Below are positions 3,203 through 25,416 of a stretch of DNA of 37,794 nucleotides, one piece after another. The position numbers were made by a program, and so were the translations under genes. Origin of the DNA: Deltaproteobacteria bacterium (GTDB lineage: Bacteria > Desulfobacterota > Desulfuromonadia > Desulfuromonadales > JAAYDE01); NCBI GenBank assembly GCA_016926265.1, contig JAFGOW010000118.1:1-37794 (forward strand), in the 5' to 3' direction. Position 1 is the first letter of the stretch, and every line of letters starts with the position of its first letter. The notes under the pieces were generated by a model. That model was not told the origin of the DNA. It saw only the letters and a list, made by a program, of their open reading frames with translations, and did not search any database.

Positions 3203-4039
3203 ATGAAGGCCATTATCAAAGTTTTATTTGTATTCGTGGTCCTGGTTTGTGCCGGCTGCGGGGTGGGGAGCCTGTCGCGCAACCTGTCCCTGGCCATTCT
3301 GAACCAGGAGGATCCCGAAATCGTCCGTCTCGGGGCGCCTGCCTACCTGTTGCTGGTGGACGGTTTCATTGAAGGGGACCCCGATGACGAGGACCTGCTC
3401 TGCATGGGAGCGGCCCTTTACAGCATCTATACCACGGTTTTTGTCGATGATCCCGAGCGGGCTTCGAAGCTGGCCGCGCGGGCCGAGCACTACGGGGAGC
3501 GGGCCTTGTGTGAATGGAACAGTTCGGGCTGCGGTTTGAAACGCCGTTCCTATGAGGGTTTCGCCGCCGGCCTCAAGGAACTGGACGACGACGATGTGCC
3601 GGCCCTGTATGCCTTCGCCGTCAGTTGGCTGCTGGCGATCAAGGTCAACAGCTCCGATTGGAAGGCGCTGGCCGACCTTCCCAAGGTGGAACTGGCGTTG
3701 CGGCGTCTTATCGAACTGGATGAGACTTACGAGCGCGGCAGCGCCCACCTCTACATGGGGATGCTGCAGACGGTGCGGCCGCCGGCTTTGGGAGGCCAGC
3801 CGGAGGAGGGGCGACGCCATTTCGAACGGGCGCTTGAACTCTCCGGAGGGAAAGACCTCGCCGTCAAGGTGGAGTACGCCCGCAACTATGCCCGCCTTCT
3901 GTACGACCGCGAGTTGCATGACCGGCTCTTGAATGAGGTGCTGGACGCCGATCCCAGGGCGCCTGGACTGACTCTTTTCAATGTGCTGGCCCAGGACCAG
4001 GCCCGGAAGCTGCTGGAGAGCGGCAAGGATTATTTTTGA
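3203..4039 (+). CDS. TRAP transporter TatT component (TRAP-T) lipoprotein
   Basis: The gene encodes 278 residues. The N-terminus is a lipoprotein signal (hydrophobic stretch, then CAG|C with C19 as the lipid-anchored residue). The rest is alpha-helical with TPR-like repeats, including LYMGMLQTVRPPALGG and EEGRRHFERALELSGGKDLAVKVEYARNYA split over adjacent helices. It matches the TatT family first described as Treponema pallidum Tp0956, a periplasmic partner thought to work with the TRAP substrate-binding protein. It is the first gene of a four-gene TRAP operon, and its stop is 44 bases before the start of the DctP gene. The family call is strong. The role in substrate handling is from the family and is not visible here. 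Confidence 0.88.
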   Translation: MKAIIKVLFVFVVLVCAGCGVGSLSRNLSLAILNQEDPEIVRLGAPAYLLLVDGFIEGDPDDEDLLCMGAALYSIYTTVFVDDPERASKLAARAEHYGERALCEWNSSGCGLKRRSYEGFAAGLKELDDDDVPALYAFAVSWLLAIKVNSSDWKALADLPKVELALRRLIELDETYERGSAHLYMGMLQTVRPPALGGQPEEGRRHFERALELSGGKDLAVKVEYARNYARLLYDRELHDRLLNEVLDADPRAPGLTLFNVLAQDQARKLLESGKDYF

Positions 4040-4083
4040 CCGGGGGCGGAAAACCCGCTTTTTTACGATTCAGGGAGGTTGGA

Positions 4084-5088
4084 TTGAAGGGGAAAATAAT
4101 ACGGCTTTTGGCGGTTGCCGCCCTGGTTTCAATGGCTTCTGCAGGCGTGGGGCGGGCCGAGATCATCAAGCTGGCCACCATTGCCCCCGAAGGTTCCCTG
4201 TGGATGCAGGGGATGCGCAAAGGGGCCGACGAGATTAAACAGCGGACCGCAGGGCGGGTTCAGATCAAGCTCTTCGGCGGCGGCGTAATGGGAAGCGAAA
4301 ACAGCATGCTGCGCAAGATCCGTGTCGGGCAGCTCCACGGCGGCGCCTTCACCGCCGGCGGGTTGTCGGGGGTCTGTTCCGATTTGCGGATTTACGGCCT
4401 GCCGATGGTGTTTCGTTCCTTCGAGGAGGTCGATCAGGTCCGTTCCCGCATGGACAAGGCGCTACTGGCCGCATTGGAAACTGCCGGTTTTGTCAGCTTC
4501 GGTTTCGGGGAAGGGGGCTTTGCGCTGCTGATGTCCCATGAACCGGTCCGGACCCTTGAGGACATGAAAGGGAAAAAGGTCTGGATTCCCGCCGACGACC
4601 GCATCAGCGAAGTGGCGATGAAACATCTTGGTCTGTCGCCCGTGGTGCTCCCCATCACCGACGTTTTGACGGGGCTTCAGACCGGATTGCTCGATATCGT
4701 TGAAACCTCGCCCATCGGGGCCATCGCCTTCCAGTGGCACGTCAAGACCCGTTATATTACCGACGCGCCGCTGGCCTATCTGTTTGCTACCCTGGTGATC
4801 GACAAGAAAGTCTTCGATCGCCTCGCTGCCGCTGACCGGGATATCGTGCGGGAAGTGATGACCCGAATTTATGCCGGCTTCGACCGTCAGAACCGCGCCG
4901 ACAACCAGGCCGCTTTCGAGGCTCTGATCGCCCAGGGGCTCCAGGTGGTTCAGCCGCCCGCTTCCGAACTCTCCCGTTGGCGCGAGAAATCGGCCCTGGT
5001 GAACCGCAGCCTGGAAGAGGAAGGCGCTTTCAACGCGGCCCTCTACCGCCAGATGCAGGGGCATCTGGCGGAATTCCGCAAACGGTGA
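4084..5088 (+). CDS. dctP: TRAP transporter substrate-binding protein, DctP family
   Basis: This is the periplasmic solute receptor of the TRAP importer, 334 residues from a TTG start at 4084. GGGAGG at 4073-4078 sits five bases before that TTG, and the choice gives a clean signal peptide ending GVGRA|EII. An earlier TTG at 4036 would bury the signal. The mature protein shows DctP hallmarks: IKLATIAPEGS at the first strand, FGGGVMGSE, KGKKVWIP, and GLLDIVETSP. TRAP receptors usually bind carboxylates through a conserved arginine, but the exact substrate cannot be read from sequence. It is co-transcribed with tatT upstream and dctQ and dctM downstream. Confidence 0.93.
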   Translation: MKGKIIRLLAVAALVSMASAGVGRAEIIKLATIAPEGSLWMQGMRKGADEIKQRTAGRVQIKLFGGGVMGSENSMLRKIRVGQLHGGAFTAGGLSGVCSDLRIYGLPMVFRSFEEVDQVRSRMDKALLAALETAGFVSFGFGEGGFALLMSHEPVRTLEDMKGKKVWIPADDRISEVAMKHLGLSPVVLPITDVLTGLQTGLLDIVETSPIGAIAFQWHVKTRYITDAPLAYLFATLVIDKKVFDRLAAADRDIVREVMTRIYAGFDRQNRADNQAAFEALIAQGLQVVQPPASELSRWREKSALVNRSLEEEGAFNAALYRQMQGHLAEFRKR

Positions 5089-5140
5089 CAGCATCAGACA
5101 CTTTTCCATCGGATAATTGGAAAAAAAAAACAGACTTGCC

Positions 5141-5644
5141 ATGGAATTGCTGTCGCGACTGCGCCGCATCGGGACCCTGATCGAAGATGGGCTGCTGATT
5201 CTGTTTCTGGCCACCATGATCCTTTTGGCCTGCGGCCAGATTCTGCTGCGCAATCTGTTCAGCATCGGGCTGGTGTGGGCCGACGGCCTGCTCCAGATCT
5301 CGGTTTTGTGGCTTGGGCTGCTGGGGGCCATGGCGGCCAGCCGCGACGACAACCACATCAACATCGATGTCCTGACCCGATTTTTCCCGCCCCGCTGGCA
5401 AATACCTTTCCGCCTGGTGAGCCATCTCTTCACCGCCTTGGTCTGCGGCGTGATCGCCTGGCAGTCCTATCTGTTTGTGAAAAGTGAATTCATTTTCGGA
5501 ACCGCCGGAGTGGGGAACTGGCCGGTCTGGGTTTTCCAATCGATTCTTCCCCTGGGTTTCGGGCTGATCTCCTATCGCTATGTCCTCAATTTCTTCGTAC
5601 TGCTGGGCCGGTTCCGCAGCGCAGGGGAGGGGGGGGAAACCTGA
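5141..5644 (+). CDS. dctQ: TRAP transporter small permease subunit, DctQ family
   Basis: This is the small membrane subunit of the TRAP transporter, about 168 residues with four hydrophobic segments. The DctQ pattern is present: LLACGQILLRNLF, WADGLLQISVLWLGLLGAMAAS and DDNHINIDVL. The start is uncertain. ATG at 5141 and an in-frame TTG at 5117 both lack a clear Shine-Dalgarno sequence, and a ten-A run (5121-5130) lies between them. Its TGA shares one base with the ATG of dctM (TGATG), so the two membrane subunits are probably made by coupled translation. Confidence 0.9.
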   Translation: MELLSRLRRIGTLIEDGLLILFLATMILLACGQILLRNLFSIGLVWADGLLQISVLWLGLLGAMAASRDDNHINIDVLTRFFPPRWQIPFRLVSHLFTALVCGVIAWQSYLFVKSEFIFGTAGVGNWPVWVFQSILPLGFGLISYRYVLNFFVLLGRFRSAGEGGET

Positions 5645-6918
5645 TGTTGGCCGCCCTGCTGCTCCTGTTGCTGGCCTTGGTGGGCACACCGCTGTTTGTC
5701 ATTATCGCCGCGGCTGCGCTGTGGGGCTTTCATTCCAGCGGCGTCGATCTCAGTGTCGTTGCCATCGAAATCTACCGGATCGCGGAAACCCCGGTGCTGC
5801 TGGCCATCCCCCTCTTTACCTTCGCCGGCTATCTGCTGAGCGAAAGTCAGGCGCCGCAGCGGCTGATGCGGTTGACGCAATCCCTGATCGGGTGGCTGCC
5901 GGGGGGGCTGGCTATCGTTTCCCTGGGGGTGTGCGCCGTTTTCACCGCCTTCACCGGCGCTTCCGGCGTGACCATCATTGCCTTGGGTGCCCTGCTCTAT
6001 CCCGCCATGGAGGAAGCCGGTTATCCTCAAAAATTCAATCTCGGCCTGGTGACCACCTCCGGGAGCCTCGGTTTGCTGTTCGCTCCGTCGCTGCCGCTGA
6101 TCCTTTACGGGATCGTGGCGCAGCAGATGAACCTGGGGCAGCCGGTCGCCATCGAGGACCTCTTTCTGGCCGGGATTTTTCCGGGGCTGCTGATGCTGGT
6201 GATGCTGTCGGCCTGGAGTATCTGGACCAACCGCGGTCATCGCATCCCGCTCCGGGAATTCCGGTGGCGGGAGGTCGGGAACTCGGTGCGGGCCGCGGCG
6301 TGGGAATTGCCGTTGCCGGTTTTTGTCCTGGGGGGCATCTACGGCGGGTTTTTTGCGGTATCCGAGGCGGCGGCGATGACCGCTCTCTATGTGCTTATCG
6401 TCGAGGTCCTGATTCTGCGGGAGATTCCCCTGCGGCGCCTGCCCGCCGTGATGCGCAAATCGATGGTCCTGGTCGGCGGCATTCTGGTCATCCTGGCGGT
6501 TTCCCTCGCCTCCGCCAACTACATGATCGACGCAGGGATTCCGAACCGGCTGTTCGAAATCATCAACGCCCACGTCAGCAGCCGTCTTGCCTTCCTGGTG
6601 CTGCTCAACATCTTTCTGCTGGCGCTGGGGGCGTTGCTCGACATCTTCTCGGCCCTGGTGCTGGTCGTCCCCCTGATCTTGCCCGTGGCGGTGGGGTACG
6701 GCATTCACCCCGTCCACCTCGGGATTATCTTTCTGGCCAACATGCAGATCGGCTATCTGACCCCACCGGTGGGACTCAACCTTTTTATCTCTGGCTACCG
6801 TTTTAACAAACCGATCAGCGAGGTCTACTGGTCCACCCTCCCATTTTTTGTGATTCTGCTCTGCTCGGTGTTGGTGATCACCTACTGGCCGGCGCTCTCC
6901 CTGGTCCTTCTCGGGTGA
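5644..6918 (+). CDS. dctM: TRAP transporter large permease subunit, DctM family
   Basis: This is the ion-coupled transport subunit of the TRAP system, 424 residues and about 11-12 membrane segments, full length for DctM. Typical blocks are FTAFTGASGVTIIALGALLYPAM, GSLGLLFAPSLPLILYG, and near the end FLANMQIGYLTPPVGLNLF. It works with DctQ in the inner membrane, is fed by the DctP receptor, and is usually driven by a sodium gradient. The start overlaps the dctQ stop by one base. It ends the operon, and no T-rich terminator follows directly. Confidence 0.95.
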   Translation: MLAALLLLLLALVGTPLFVIIAAAALWGFHSSGVDLSVVAIEIYRIAETPVLLAIPLFTFAGYLLSESQAPQRLMRLTQSLIGWLPGGLAIVSLGVCAVFTAFTGASGVTIIALGALLYPAMEEAGYPQKFNLGLVTTSGSLGLLFAPSLPLILYGIVAQQMNLGQPVAIEDLFLAGIFPGLLMLVMLSAWSIWTNRGHRIPLREFRWREVGNSVRAAAWELPLPVFVLGGIYGGFFAVSEAAAMTALYVLIVEVLILREIPLRRLPAVMRKSMVLVGGILVILAVSLASANYMIDAGIPNRLFEIINAHVSSRLAFLVLLNIFLLALGALLDIFSALVLVVPLILPVAVGYGIHPVHLGIIFLANMQIGYLTPPVGLNLFISGYRFNKPISEVYWSTLPFFVILLCSVLVITYWPALSLVLLG

Positions 6919-12084: not shown

Positions 12085-12159
<75 letters not shown>

Positions 12160-21518: not shown

Positions 21519-24245
21519 TCATTCATCCATTTGGGAGATTTTTTCCCTCCACAACAGTTTTTCAAGGCTTACCACAATCCACGTGATCACGGCGATTCCC
21601 AAGGCCCGCAGCCACGAACCCAGAGAGACCGGCCCGGAATGGAATACCCAGTTCAGGGAAGGGGCATAGGTGAAGAGCAATTGAAGCCCCAGGGCGGTAA
21701 AGATCCCGGCCCATATCCAGGGATTGGAAAAGATGCCGATTTTCAGGACCGATTTGGTCAGAGACCGGCATTTGAGCAGATAGCCGATCTGAACCAGCAC
21801 GAAGACATTGACCGCTACGGTGCGGGCCGCATCCGGGCTGCTGCCCTTGATCAACTCCCACTCGAACAAGCCGAAAGCTCCCAACAGCAAGAGGGTTCCC
21901 ACCACCACGATCCGGACCGTCAACTCGAAGGTGAGAATGGGGCTGTGGGGATCCCTGGGACGGCGGCGCATGATGTCGGGTTCCTTGGCTTCGAAGGCCA
22001 GGGTCAGGCCGAGCAGAACCGCCGTCACCATATTGAGCCACAGGATCTGGATTGGCAGAATCGGCAGGGTCACCCCCGCCAGCACCGCCACCATGATGAC
22101 CAGCCCTTGTCCGATATTGGTCGGCAAGGTCCAGATAATGAACTTGGTCAGGTTGTCGAAAACACCCCGTCCTTCTTCCACGGCGGCTTCTACGGTGGCG
22201 AAATTATCGTCGGTCAGGACAACATCGGCGGCATCCTTGGCCGCTTCGGTACCGGCTATCCCCAGAGCCACACCGATGTCGGCCTTTTTCAGGGCCGCGG
22301 CGTCATTGACGCTGCTTCCCGTCAAGGCCACAATGTGGCCGCGGCTCTGAATGGCTTTTACCAAGCGGAGCTTTTGCTCCGGAGAAACCCTGGAAAAAAC
22401 GACCGTTCGTTCCGCCAGTTCGGTGATTTCCCTGTCGGAAAGGGTGGCGAGGGTTTTGCCGGTCACCGGCGCCGTATCGACATGGTGCCCTTTCACGGGG
22501 CGGAAAAGACCAAGCTGGGCGGCAATGGCCGCTGCCGTACCGGGGTGGTCGCCCGTAATCATCTTGACCTGGATTCCGGCTGAATGGCAGCTTGCCAGCG
22601 CAGCGATGGCTTCGTTTCGCGGTGGATCAATCATCCCTTGCAGCCCCAGGAAGGTCAGGTCGGAACGAAGGTCGTTCAGGGCGAGGGAACGTTGTTCCGG
22701 CATCCCTTCCTTTCTGGCCAGGGCCAGGACCCGCAACCCCTTGGCGGTCATCTCTTCGATGGCTTGGGAAATCCTGGCGCGATCCAGGGAAAAGTGTTGA
22801 AAGTTCGAGTCGAGGGAATCGACGCAGGCATCGAGGATCACCTCCGCGGCGCCTTTGACGGAAATTACCGGAAGGGATTGGGGCCCGGATGAATGGAGAG
22901 TGGCCATGAACGGGCGGTGGGGTTCAAAAGGGATGGAATCGAGGCGGGGGAAATTTTTGCGCTCTTTTTCCGGGGACAGACCGGCCTTGGCGGCCGCTAC
23001 CAGAAGAGCTCCTTCGGTGGGATCCCCGTCGATGGTCCAGTGTTCGTCCTCAAGGCGAAGGTTGCTGTCGTTGCAAAGCAGCCCGGCGCGAAGGCATTCC
23101 TTCAGCCCCCGGTGGTTGTCCGGGGAGATCGGAACCCCGTGGCGGGTAAAATGCCCCGATGGAAGATAACCGGTTCCTGAGACCTCAAAAAGGTCTGCGC
23201 TGGCAAAGATCTCCCTCACCGTCATCTGATTTTTCGTCAAAGTGCCCGTTTTGTCCGAACAGAGCACCGTGGTGCTGCCCAGGGTTTCCACCACCGGAAG
23301 TCTGCGGACGATGGCCCGGCGTTGGGCCATCCGGGACACTCCGATGCCGAGGGCCATGGCCAAAACAGCGGGGAGACCTTCAGGGATGGCGGCTACGGCG
23401 AGGGAAACGGCGGCCAGGAAGGTGTCTTCCAGGGAATACCCACGGAGCAGGCCAGCCCCAAAGGTGACGGCGGACAGACCGACAATGACGTAAAGCAAAA
23501 CCCGGCTGAAGGTGGAGAATTTTCGGGCGAGAGGGGTTTCGAGGGAGGTGGTTCCGGAAATCAGTTCTGAAATGCGCCCGACCTCGGTCTTATTGCCGGT
23601 GGCGACTACGATTCCGGTGGCTTGCCCCGAGAGGACCGAGGTCGAGGCAAAGGCCATGTTGCACCGATCGGCCAGGACGGTCTCATCGGGAAGCTGCTCC
23701 TCCGTTTTCACTACGGGAGTCGAATTTCCGCTCAGCGACGATTGGTCCACCCGTAGATCGCGGCTCTGGCAGATTCTCAAGTCCGCCGGAATTTTGTCCC
23801 CCGCCTGCAGAATGACGATATCGCCGGGAACCAGCTCCTCGGCCCGGATGCGGGATTGTTCTCCGGACCGCAACACGGTTGATTCCATGACGTGGTTTCC
23901 GGGTGCCGACCCGTTGGTTTTAGCGATTTTAGAGGCCTGGAAGAATCCGATCACTGCGTTGAGAATGACAACGCCGAAAATGACCCCGGAATCAACCCAC
24001 TCATGGAGGACGGCGGTGATGGTTCCGGCGGCGATCAGGACGTAAACCAAAGGCTGATGGAATTGGGAAAAAAAGCGCGCCAGGGGGCCGCGTCCCCGCT
24101 TGAGACTGAGGAGATTGGAGCCGAAGCGTTTGCTCCGGTATTCCACCTCGAACAGGTCGAGGCCTTTTTTTAAATCGGTTTCGAGGAGTTTCGCGGCCTG
24201 TTCAGAGGATAAGGCATGCCAATGTTTTCCGAGCAGAATTTCCAT
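21519..24245 (-). CDS. P2-like cation-transporting P-type ATPase with altered catalytic motifs
   Basis: The gene encodes 908 residues with the full domain order: cation-ATPase N-domain, M1-M2, actuator, M3-M4 with IPEGLP (288-292), phosphorylation motif DKTGTLT with D331, nucleotide-binding domain with KGA (464-466), hinge, and M5-M10. Two usually invariant motifs are changed. The actuator TGES is SGNS at 172-175 (Glu to Asn). The hinge TGDGVND is TGSSVND at 642-648 (the Mg-binding Asp and the next Gly are both Ser). M5 reads TNIGQG, where relatives often have Glu for Gln. M6 reads LWLNMVTAVLLG, a class of unknown ion specificity. The protein is otherwise intact. It may be catalytically slow, locked as phosphoenzyme, or used as a sensor. 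Confidence 0.92.
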   Translation of the reverse strand: MEILLGKHWHALSSEQAAKLLETDLKKGLDLFEVEYRSKRFGSNLLSLKRGRGPLARFFSQFHQPLVYVLIAAGTITAVLHEWVDSGVIFGVVILNAVIGFFQASKIAKTNGSAPGNHVMESTVLRSGEQSRIRAEELVPGDIVILQAGDKIPADLRICQSRDLRVDQSSLSGNSTPVVKTEEQLPDETVLADRCNMAFASTSVLSGQATGIVVATGNKTEVGRISELISGTTSLETPLARKFSTFSRVLLYVIVGLSAVTFGAGLLRGYSLEDTFLAAVSLAVAAIPEGLPAVLAMALGIGVSRMAQRRAIVRRLPVVETLGSTTVLCSDKTGTLTKNQMTVREIFASADLFEVSGTGYLPSGHFTRHGVPISPDNHRGLKECLRAGLLCNDSNLRLEDEHWTIDGDPTEGALLVAAAKAGLSPEKERKNFPRLDSIPFEPHRPFMATLHSSGPQSLPVISVKGAAEVILDACVDSLDSNFQHFSLDRARISQAIEEMTAKGLRVLALARKEGMPEQRSLALNDLRSDLTFLGLQGMIDPPRNEAIAALASCHSAGIQVKMITGDHPGTAAAIAAQLGLFRPVKGHHVDTAPVTGKTLATLSDREITELAERTVVFSRVSPEQKLRLVKAIQSRGHIVALTGSSVNDAAALKKADIGVALGIAGTEAAKDAADVVLTDDNFATVEAAVEEGRGVFDNLTKFIIWTLPTNIGQGLVIMVAVLAGVTLPILPIQILWLNMVTAVLLGLTLAFEAKEPDIMRRRPRDPHSPILTFELTVRIVVVGTLLLLGAFGLFEWELIKGSSPDAARTVAVNVFVLVQIGYLLKCRSLTKSVLKIGIFSNPWIWAGIFTALGLQLLFTYAPSLNWVFHSGPVSLGSWLRALGIAVITWIVVSLEKLLWREKISQMDE

Positions 24246-24516
24246 AGATCCAGTCCAACCTGGTTCATTAAGGAGACGAAATCGATCCGAGTCGCGCCGG
24301 GATTTGACCGGGGAGACCGCTTGAACAGAAAAAATTTAACCATTTACTGCCTGAGGAGGCAAGAACACTTTTAGGTCCGTTGTTTTTGTCAGATATCCGT
24401 TGCCGAAAGGAGGCTCCCGGAAGAGGGGGTTCTTTTCTATTGGCATTACCTACCCAAATTGTTATAAAAGCAAGTTGGTTTCAAAAATAAAGTATAGCGG
24501 ATGGAGGAAAAAGCAG

Positions 24517-25416
24517 ATGAGAAGACCCCAAAAAATGGAGACCCGGTCGGGCCTGATTGCCAAGGAAGTCTTGAAGGAGTGCGGCAACGACTGGCTTTCA
24601 GCGGCTTTGAAGATGTTTCAGATGGCCAAGGACGACCATAACCTGATGCGTGAGATTGTCGACCCCATCATCGCGGATCGGGTTTATGAGGCGCTGGAGC
24701 GGATTTCCCCCATCAATTATGGTGGGAAAACGCTGCTGACCTGCCCCCTTACCACCAGTGAATTCGTGCTTTTGAGAGACGCGGGCAAGGAGGAACTGGA
24801 AAGGGAGATGTCTTTTTTCGAAGAGAACATGAAAAAATCCCTGGAAAGGGCTGCCTGGTTTCATCGGGTCATGGAATCGCTGGAGGAAAAAAAGAAAGTC
24901 CGGGATCAGTTTTCCGCCGAGGATATGACGGCATTGCGCCAAAAATTCGGGGAGGAATGGAAGGGGGAAGTCACCTTTTTCACCTCCGAGGCTTCCACCC
25001 CTATCAAAAAACTGACCATCGAGGCCATCCAAAAAAGCCAGGGAGATTGGATGCTGGCCTTGCAACTCTTGACCAAGCGGGTTTTGGAGGATCCCCTGGC
25101 GTTGTTTTCCCTCACCTCGCCGGTCTTCTTTTCAGCCTTGTGGCAGGTTTTTGGACAGGTTTCGGAACATTCCGTCGACATGTCTCCGCCCCTTAATTTT
25201 CCCTTAAGTTCCGGCTGGATTTTCGGCGATGCGACGCGGGAGGAATTGAAGCAGGAAGTGCTATTCTGGGAAGAAAACGCCCGCTTTCTGCTTCGCAAAC
25301 TGCGCTGGTTTTCCCTGATCCGCGACGCCGTGGGGGAAAATGGGCGGGTCTACAAGCTGCTCAGCGAACTGCATGTGAAAAAATTCTGGAATGATGCCTT
25401 CTTATCGGTCCGGTAG
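24517..25416 (+). CDS. Unknown protein built from two copies of one helical domain
   Basis: The gene encodes 299 residues from ATG at 24517, eight bases after GGAGG (24504-24508). No signal peptide or membrane segment is seen, so it is probably cytoplasmic. The two halves align. NDWLSAALKMFQMAKDD (24-40) corresponds to GDWMLALQLLTKRVLED (176-192), and DAGKEELEREMSFFEEN (88-104) corresponds to DATREELKQEVLFWEEN (238-254). The distance between the blocks is nearly the same in both halves (about 62 residues). Charged helices dominate. I do not recognise the family. The gene sits alone between the divergent ATPase gene and galE. Confidence 0.8.
   Translation: MRRPQKMETRSGLIAKEVLKECGNDWLSAALKMFQMAKDDHNLMREIVDPIIADRVYEALERISPINYGGKTLLTCPLTTSEFVLLRDAGKEELEREMSFFEENMKKSLERAAWFHRVMESLEEKKKVRDQFSAEDMTALRQKFGEEWKGEVTFFTSEASTPIKKLTIEAIQKSQGDWMLALQLLTKRVLEDPLALFSLTSPVFFSALWQVFGQVSEHSVDMSPPLNFPLSSGWIFGDATREELKQEVLFWEENARFLLRKLRWFSLIRDAVGENGRVYKLLSELHVKKFWNDAFLSVR

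Follow-up and report, generated by a model that had tools for sequence, protein, structure and literature searches.

The window analysed here is a stretch of 37,794 nucleotides from a Deltaproteobacteria bacterium (draft assembly, 258 contigs, 84.65% complete). Its minus strand carries, at 21519-24245, an open reading frame of 908 codons with an ATG start; the plus strand of the same segment is interrupted by stops. This frame had been picked out in an earlier sequence-only reading, which left the strand unstated, and was confirmed at the same positions. Domain profiles and an AlphaFold2 model identify the product as a P2-type (PMR1/SERCA-like) ATPase, catalytically degenerate. It shows the full PF00690/PF00122/PF13246/PF00702/PF00689 architecture, with A, N, P and membrane domains in order, and judged by homology of sequence and predicted fold it is a member of the P-type ATPase superfamily (P2A-like). 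The model, built on 23 sequences, has a mean pLDDT of 81.7, and a fold search with it gave SPCA and SERCA structures matching over the whole length, the best solved relatives being human SPCA1 and Listeria LMCA1. The tripeptide 173-175, in the altered A-domain loop, is among the few stretches of the model with pLDDT below 50. Against TIGR01522 (PMR1-type Ca2+ ATPase) the protein scores 634.1 bits for a curated cut-off of 798.3, a value that intact bacterial relatives may also fail to reach.

Directly downstream of the ATPase gene, in an arrangement common to both species of the genus, lies a gene for a cytidine/adenosine-deaminase-like protein (PF00383; 20829-21452, minus strand), weakly similar to TadA (30 bits for a cut-off of 150). 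The divergent upstream neighbour, orf24400 (24400-25416, plus strand), has no Pfam or NCBIfam match; among the 39 genomes of the order that were searched, it occurs in all four that belong to the family and is absent from the other 35. In G003, a genome from another genus of the family, orf24400, permease and fpg genes are adjacent without the ATPase. The intergenic region between the ATPase gene and orf24400 contains a 17-base block, AAATTTAACCATTTACT (24332-24348), which is identical in both species and is possibly a shared promoter element. Around the ATPase gene, no sigma-70 consensus was obtained in a promoter scan, and Rfam and tRNA scans gave nothing relevant. An operon partner inferred from intact relatives was also considered and set aside: four neighbour proteins have no match near intact homologues. 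The neighbours of the ATPase give no firm hint of its role. Elsewhere the window carries tRNA-Gln(CTG) (1328-1401) and tRNA-Gly(CCC) (12085-12159) genes, and a gene for a histone-deacetylase-family protein (PF00850; 7037-8191) stands beside a TRAP transporter gene set (3203-6918); the two tRNA genes and the deacetylase-family gene are on the plus strand.

Catalytic motifs in two species of one genus

The window protein was compared with about 88 aligned P2 ATPase relatives. Its phosphorylation motif DKTGTLT (residues 331-337, 23235-23255; all gene positions in this section are on the minus strand) is intact. In the A domain, SGNS (172-175, 23721-23732) replaces TGES, with E168Q just before it, and at the P-domain hinge TGSSVND (642-648, 22302-22322) replaces TGDGVND. 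The Glu of TGES is thereby exchanged for Asn and the first Asp of GDGxND for Ser, at positions where the other aligned P2 ATPases have Glu (E174, 87/87) and Asp (D644, 88/88) without exception; D331 is likewise Asp in 87/87. From motif alignment and knowledge of SERCA, we take D644 to be the equivalent of SERCA D703. In the SERCA structure 1WPG, D703 binds Mg2+ together with D351 and T353 (PMC1851716), and the TGES loop is essential for dephosphorylation (PMC11977196). Conserved catalytic residues have been lost within an enzyme fold, the pattern by which a pseudoenzyme is recognised.

SGNS, TGSSVND, the intact DKTGTLT and the M5 motif NIGQG (710-714) all read as the sequence-only reading had reported them. 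That reading had also pointed to the Gln of NIGQG, where relatives often have Glu; Gln is found there in 8 of the 88 aligned relatives, these 8 having intact motifs, and we discarded it as a mark of inactivity. Beyond the changes already reported, we found E104A, E168Q, T172S, G645S and P650A. Position 104, in the M2-A linker (23934-23936), is Lys in the orthologue described below and Glu in 86/86 other sequences. Of the 110 alignment columns with an invariance of 97% or more, the window protein deviates in 13 and nearly all other sequences in 0-4; the three others that reach 11-14 belong to distant subfamilies and have intact motifs. The window protein keeps D331, K332, T333, TGD, D540, D566, K625, N647 and D648. 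The M4 cation-site motif PEGLP (288-292, 23370-23384) is intact in both species, and KGA of the N domain (464-466, 22848-22856) belongs, with E411 and R505, to a retained nucleotide-binding set.

The genus is sampled by two species, and the other one (G001) carries a 909-codon orthologue, G001:C175, 61% identical to the window protein. Gene order and sequence match in both species over a run comprising an EamA transporter, a response regulator, a histidine kinase, a Cache-like protein, the deaminase-like protein, the ATPase, orf24400, an epimerase, a permease, Fpg and Rrf2. Trees group the two ATPases as a fully supported clade, and they do so again when restricted to membrane-only or cytosol-only columns. 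The orthologue keeps TGES; its DKTGTLT has become EKTGILT, with loss of the phosphorylated Asp, and its hinge reads TGGNFHD, in which GGNFHD stands for GDGVND and the first Asp is Gly. Further losses affect M661, G665, D680 and N681. Both species have therefore lost the hinge Mg2+-binding Asp, and each has further lesions that the other does not share. It had been suggested that SGNS and TGSSVND might travel together in a clade; the orthologue, with its intact TGES and different hinge, does not share the combination, and we abandoned it as a clade signature. Judging from the two sequences, the hinge Asp may have been lost in one late ancestral event or in two separate ones.

The sister group of the degenerate pair is a clade of intact enzymes. 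The intact bacterial P2 clade (L003, L044-L046, L075-L091, L095-L105) is 52-59% identical to the window protein, its closest members (L095-L105) 55-59%; it has the M6 signature NMxTA in common with the window protein, whereas its catalytic motifs are all intact, as they are in every relative outside the genus. Searches of the class and phylum gave no further members outside the genus. In the incomplete genome of the window, a single further gene is picked up by the P-type A-domain profile; it encodes an intact paralogue (G000:C202) 49% identical to the window protein. This paralogue is present in the genomes of both species, and could supply pumping or be a partner.

Regional constraint and timing of the loss

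The alignment of the genes from the two species spans 907 codons and has one gap, a single residue long; neither frame contains stops or frameshifts. The pairwise maximum-likelihood omega is 0.113 (dS 2.6), with omega 1 rejected by a 2 delta lnL of 391, which indicates purifying selection when averaged over the gene; the corresponding values are 0.056-0.145 for syntenic neighbours and 0.062 for the intact paralogue. Several domain-wise omegas of the main pair are uninformative because synonymous sites are saturated. In neutral simulations of the window gene, 0.05 substitutions per site produced 3.2 stops on average, with a probability of 0.035 of no stop, and at 0.1 substitutions per site none of 200 runs was free of stops.

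Conservation is distributed unevenly along the protein. Relative to intact pairs of equal overall identity, a reference not matched for time, identity between the two species is low in the hinge (640-690, 0.47 vs 0.87+-0.04) and in the phosphorylation segment (0.61 vs 0.89+-0.06) and high in M7-M10 (0.70 vs 0.53+-0.04); by the same measure conservation is reduced in the A domain and M3-M4 and raised in the N-terminus. Hence a second reference was taken, the intact paralogue pair from the two genomes. Rates exceed those of the paralogue pair 9-fold in the A domain, 7.6-fold in M3-M4, 6.6-fold in the catalytic loops and 4.5-fold in M5-M6, then 3.3-fold in M1-M2, 2.2-fold in the N domain and 1.6-fold in M7-M10, and the N-terminus evolves at 0.7 times the paralogue rate. 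The best-kept part between the two species is M5-M10 (701-908, 21522-22145, minus strand), identical at 151/208 positions (73%) compared with 240/420 for A, M3-M4 and P together (p = 1.7e-4). In the N domain, 11/11 invariant columns are kept in both proteins, as are K464, E411 and R505, which, from SERCA, we presume to contact ATP.

On the stem branch preceding the species split, the catalytic loops evolved no faster than M7-M10, so that most of their release dates from the split or later; for that reason, selection after the loss is not proven by the low average omega. The intact clade has 271 invariant columns; of these, the window protein deviates at 30 and the orthologue at 47. The two sets overlap in 17 columns for 5.2 expected, with the same residue in five, an overlap that site heterogeneity could explain.

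A probable pseudo-pump and its relation to known systems

We consider it fairly probable, from these sequence comparisons, that the gene encodes a pseudo-pump, that is a PMR1/SERCA-like P2 ATPase that would have given up the phosphorylation-dephosphorylation cycle and been kept as a folded membrane protein. The strongest competitor, though an unlikely one, is relaxed or neutral decay, by which a gene redundant with the intact paralogue has been caught in both species as a pseudogene before stops or frameshifts appeared. Decay accommodates the presence of that paralogue, the lesions that differ between species, the acceleration mostly on tip branches and an overall rate higher than that of the paralogue. 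It sits badly with about 908 codons free of stops and frameshifts in either species, which is improbable under neutrality at this divergence, as well as with the omega of 0.11, the unequal domain rates with M5-M10 kept, and the 11 retained N-domain columns. Neutral decay would thus appear to fit poorly, given the absence of stops and frameshifts, the omega and the uneven acceleration.

Slightly less plausible again is a crippled pump, in which the window protein would still cycle, being phosphorylated slowly and dephosphorylated very slowly, and the orthologue would have lost activity separately. With D331, T333, D540, D566, K625, N647 and D648 kept, some phosphorylation may be possible for the window protein alone; K332, TGD and PEGLP are intact as well, and in the window lineage the phosphorylation segment has lost little of the conservation seen in intact relatives. 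However, E174 and D644 are both invariant elsewhere, and the orthologue, although devoid of the phosphorylated Asp, has likewise been kept. A role common to both proteins cannot depend on a phosphoenzyme, since the orthologue lacks this Asp. The sequence-only reading had left three options, and with such an orthologue a pump stalled as phosphoenzyme and a very slow pump are disfavoured, whereas a sensor or regulator is favoured. An assembly or sequencing artefact is hardly credible: the assembly is an incomplete draft, but several changes (among them E174N and D644S, relative to the usual codons) need two base changes each, so that single read errors are no explanation, the frame is open, and a degenerate syntenic copy exists in the separate assembly of another species.

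Along the sequence, constraint has been relaxed over the A domain, M3-M4 and the catalytic loops, and it persists over the N-terminus, the N domain with its nucleotide-binding site, and the membrane half at the C-terminal end. As a pseudo-pump, the protein would still use its N domain to bind ATP, and perhaps M4/M6, where PEGLP is intact, to bind a cation, in both cases without turnover. Through its conserved N-terminus and through M5-M10, it might then serve as a sensor, a regulator or a partner protein that does not pump.

The window protein is homologous over its full length to the P2A-type Ca2+-ATPases PMR1/SPCA and Listeria LMCA1 (34% identity to hSPCA1 and to LMCA1 in the fold search), with which it has in common the domain order, PEGLP and the N-domain ATP residues; it differs from them in lacking TGES and GDGVND. 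Pseudo-kinases and pseudo-phosphatases are well known. In a literature search with most subscription journals outside its range, we found no description of a bacterial pseudo-P-type ATPase and no paper joining the terms 'P-type ATPase' and 'pseudoenzyme'. The nearest described case, TMEM94/ERMA, resembles the window protein in having a P-type-like fold without the TGES motif; it is eukaryotic and no close sequence relative. The structure of this human protein, whose P-type-like fold lacks TGES, argued against a P-type cycle (PMC12134183), and its status is disputed, a 2026 paper holding it to be a Mg2+ pump (PMC13322241). In KdpB, likewise a P-type ATPase, inhibitory phosphorylation of the TGES serine shuts the protein down at this loop (PMC9651954, PMC10654040), but KdpB is an intact enzyme under regulation, whereas the window protein has lost residues. 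The window protein would seem to be a pseudoenzyme within an enzyme family for which bacterial examples seem undescribed. If this is true, the phosphorylation machinery can be shed while the pump scaffold stays, and the gene offers a natural experiment on which regions of a pump have uses other than pumping.

A second degenerate P2 ATPase in the family

In G003, a second P2 ATPase frame (G003:C59, L130; 1-2505, minus strand) is open to the contig edge. Its motifs are more strongly altered, with SGNS for TGES, GKTGTLT for DKTGTLT, SAD for TGD, QGSRADD for TGDGVND and PAVLP for PEGLP, and the protein deviates at 170 of the 359 columns in which 14 intact relatives never vary. We had considered it as a more diverged orthologue of the window gene. 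This was rejected, since trees place it in another P2 subfamily, and it is accordingly independent of the window gene; its closest match is an intact G001 gene (46%). Judged from these alignments and trees, G003:C59 is an independent and more extreme case than the window gene. We tentatively raise the possibility that, on two or more occasions and starting from different subfamilies (the window gene and G003:C59), P2 ATPases of this bacterial family have become non-pumping, ATP-binding membrane proteins with a role as sensors or regulatory partners, and would make up a bacterial pseudo-pump class.

The codon omega for G003:C59 is uninformative, synonymous sites being saturated. Its neighbours on the contig are putative mutL-like and KefB-like genes, named from their translations.
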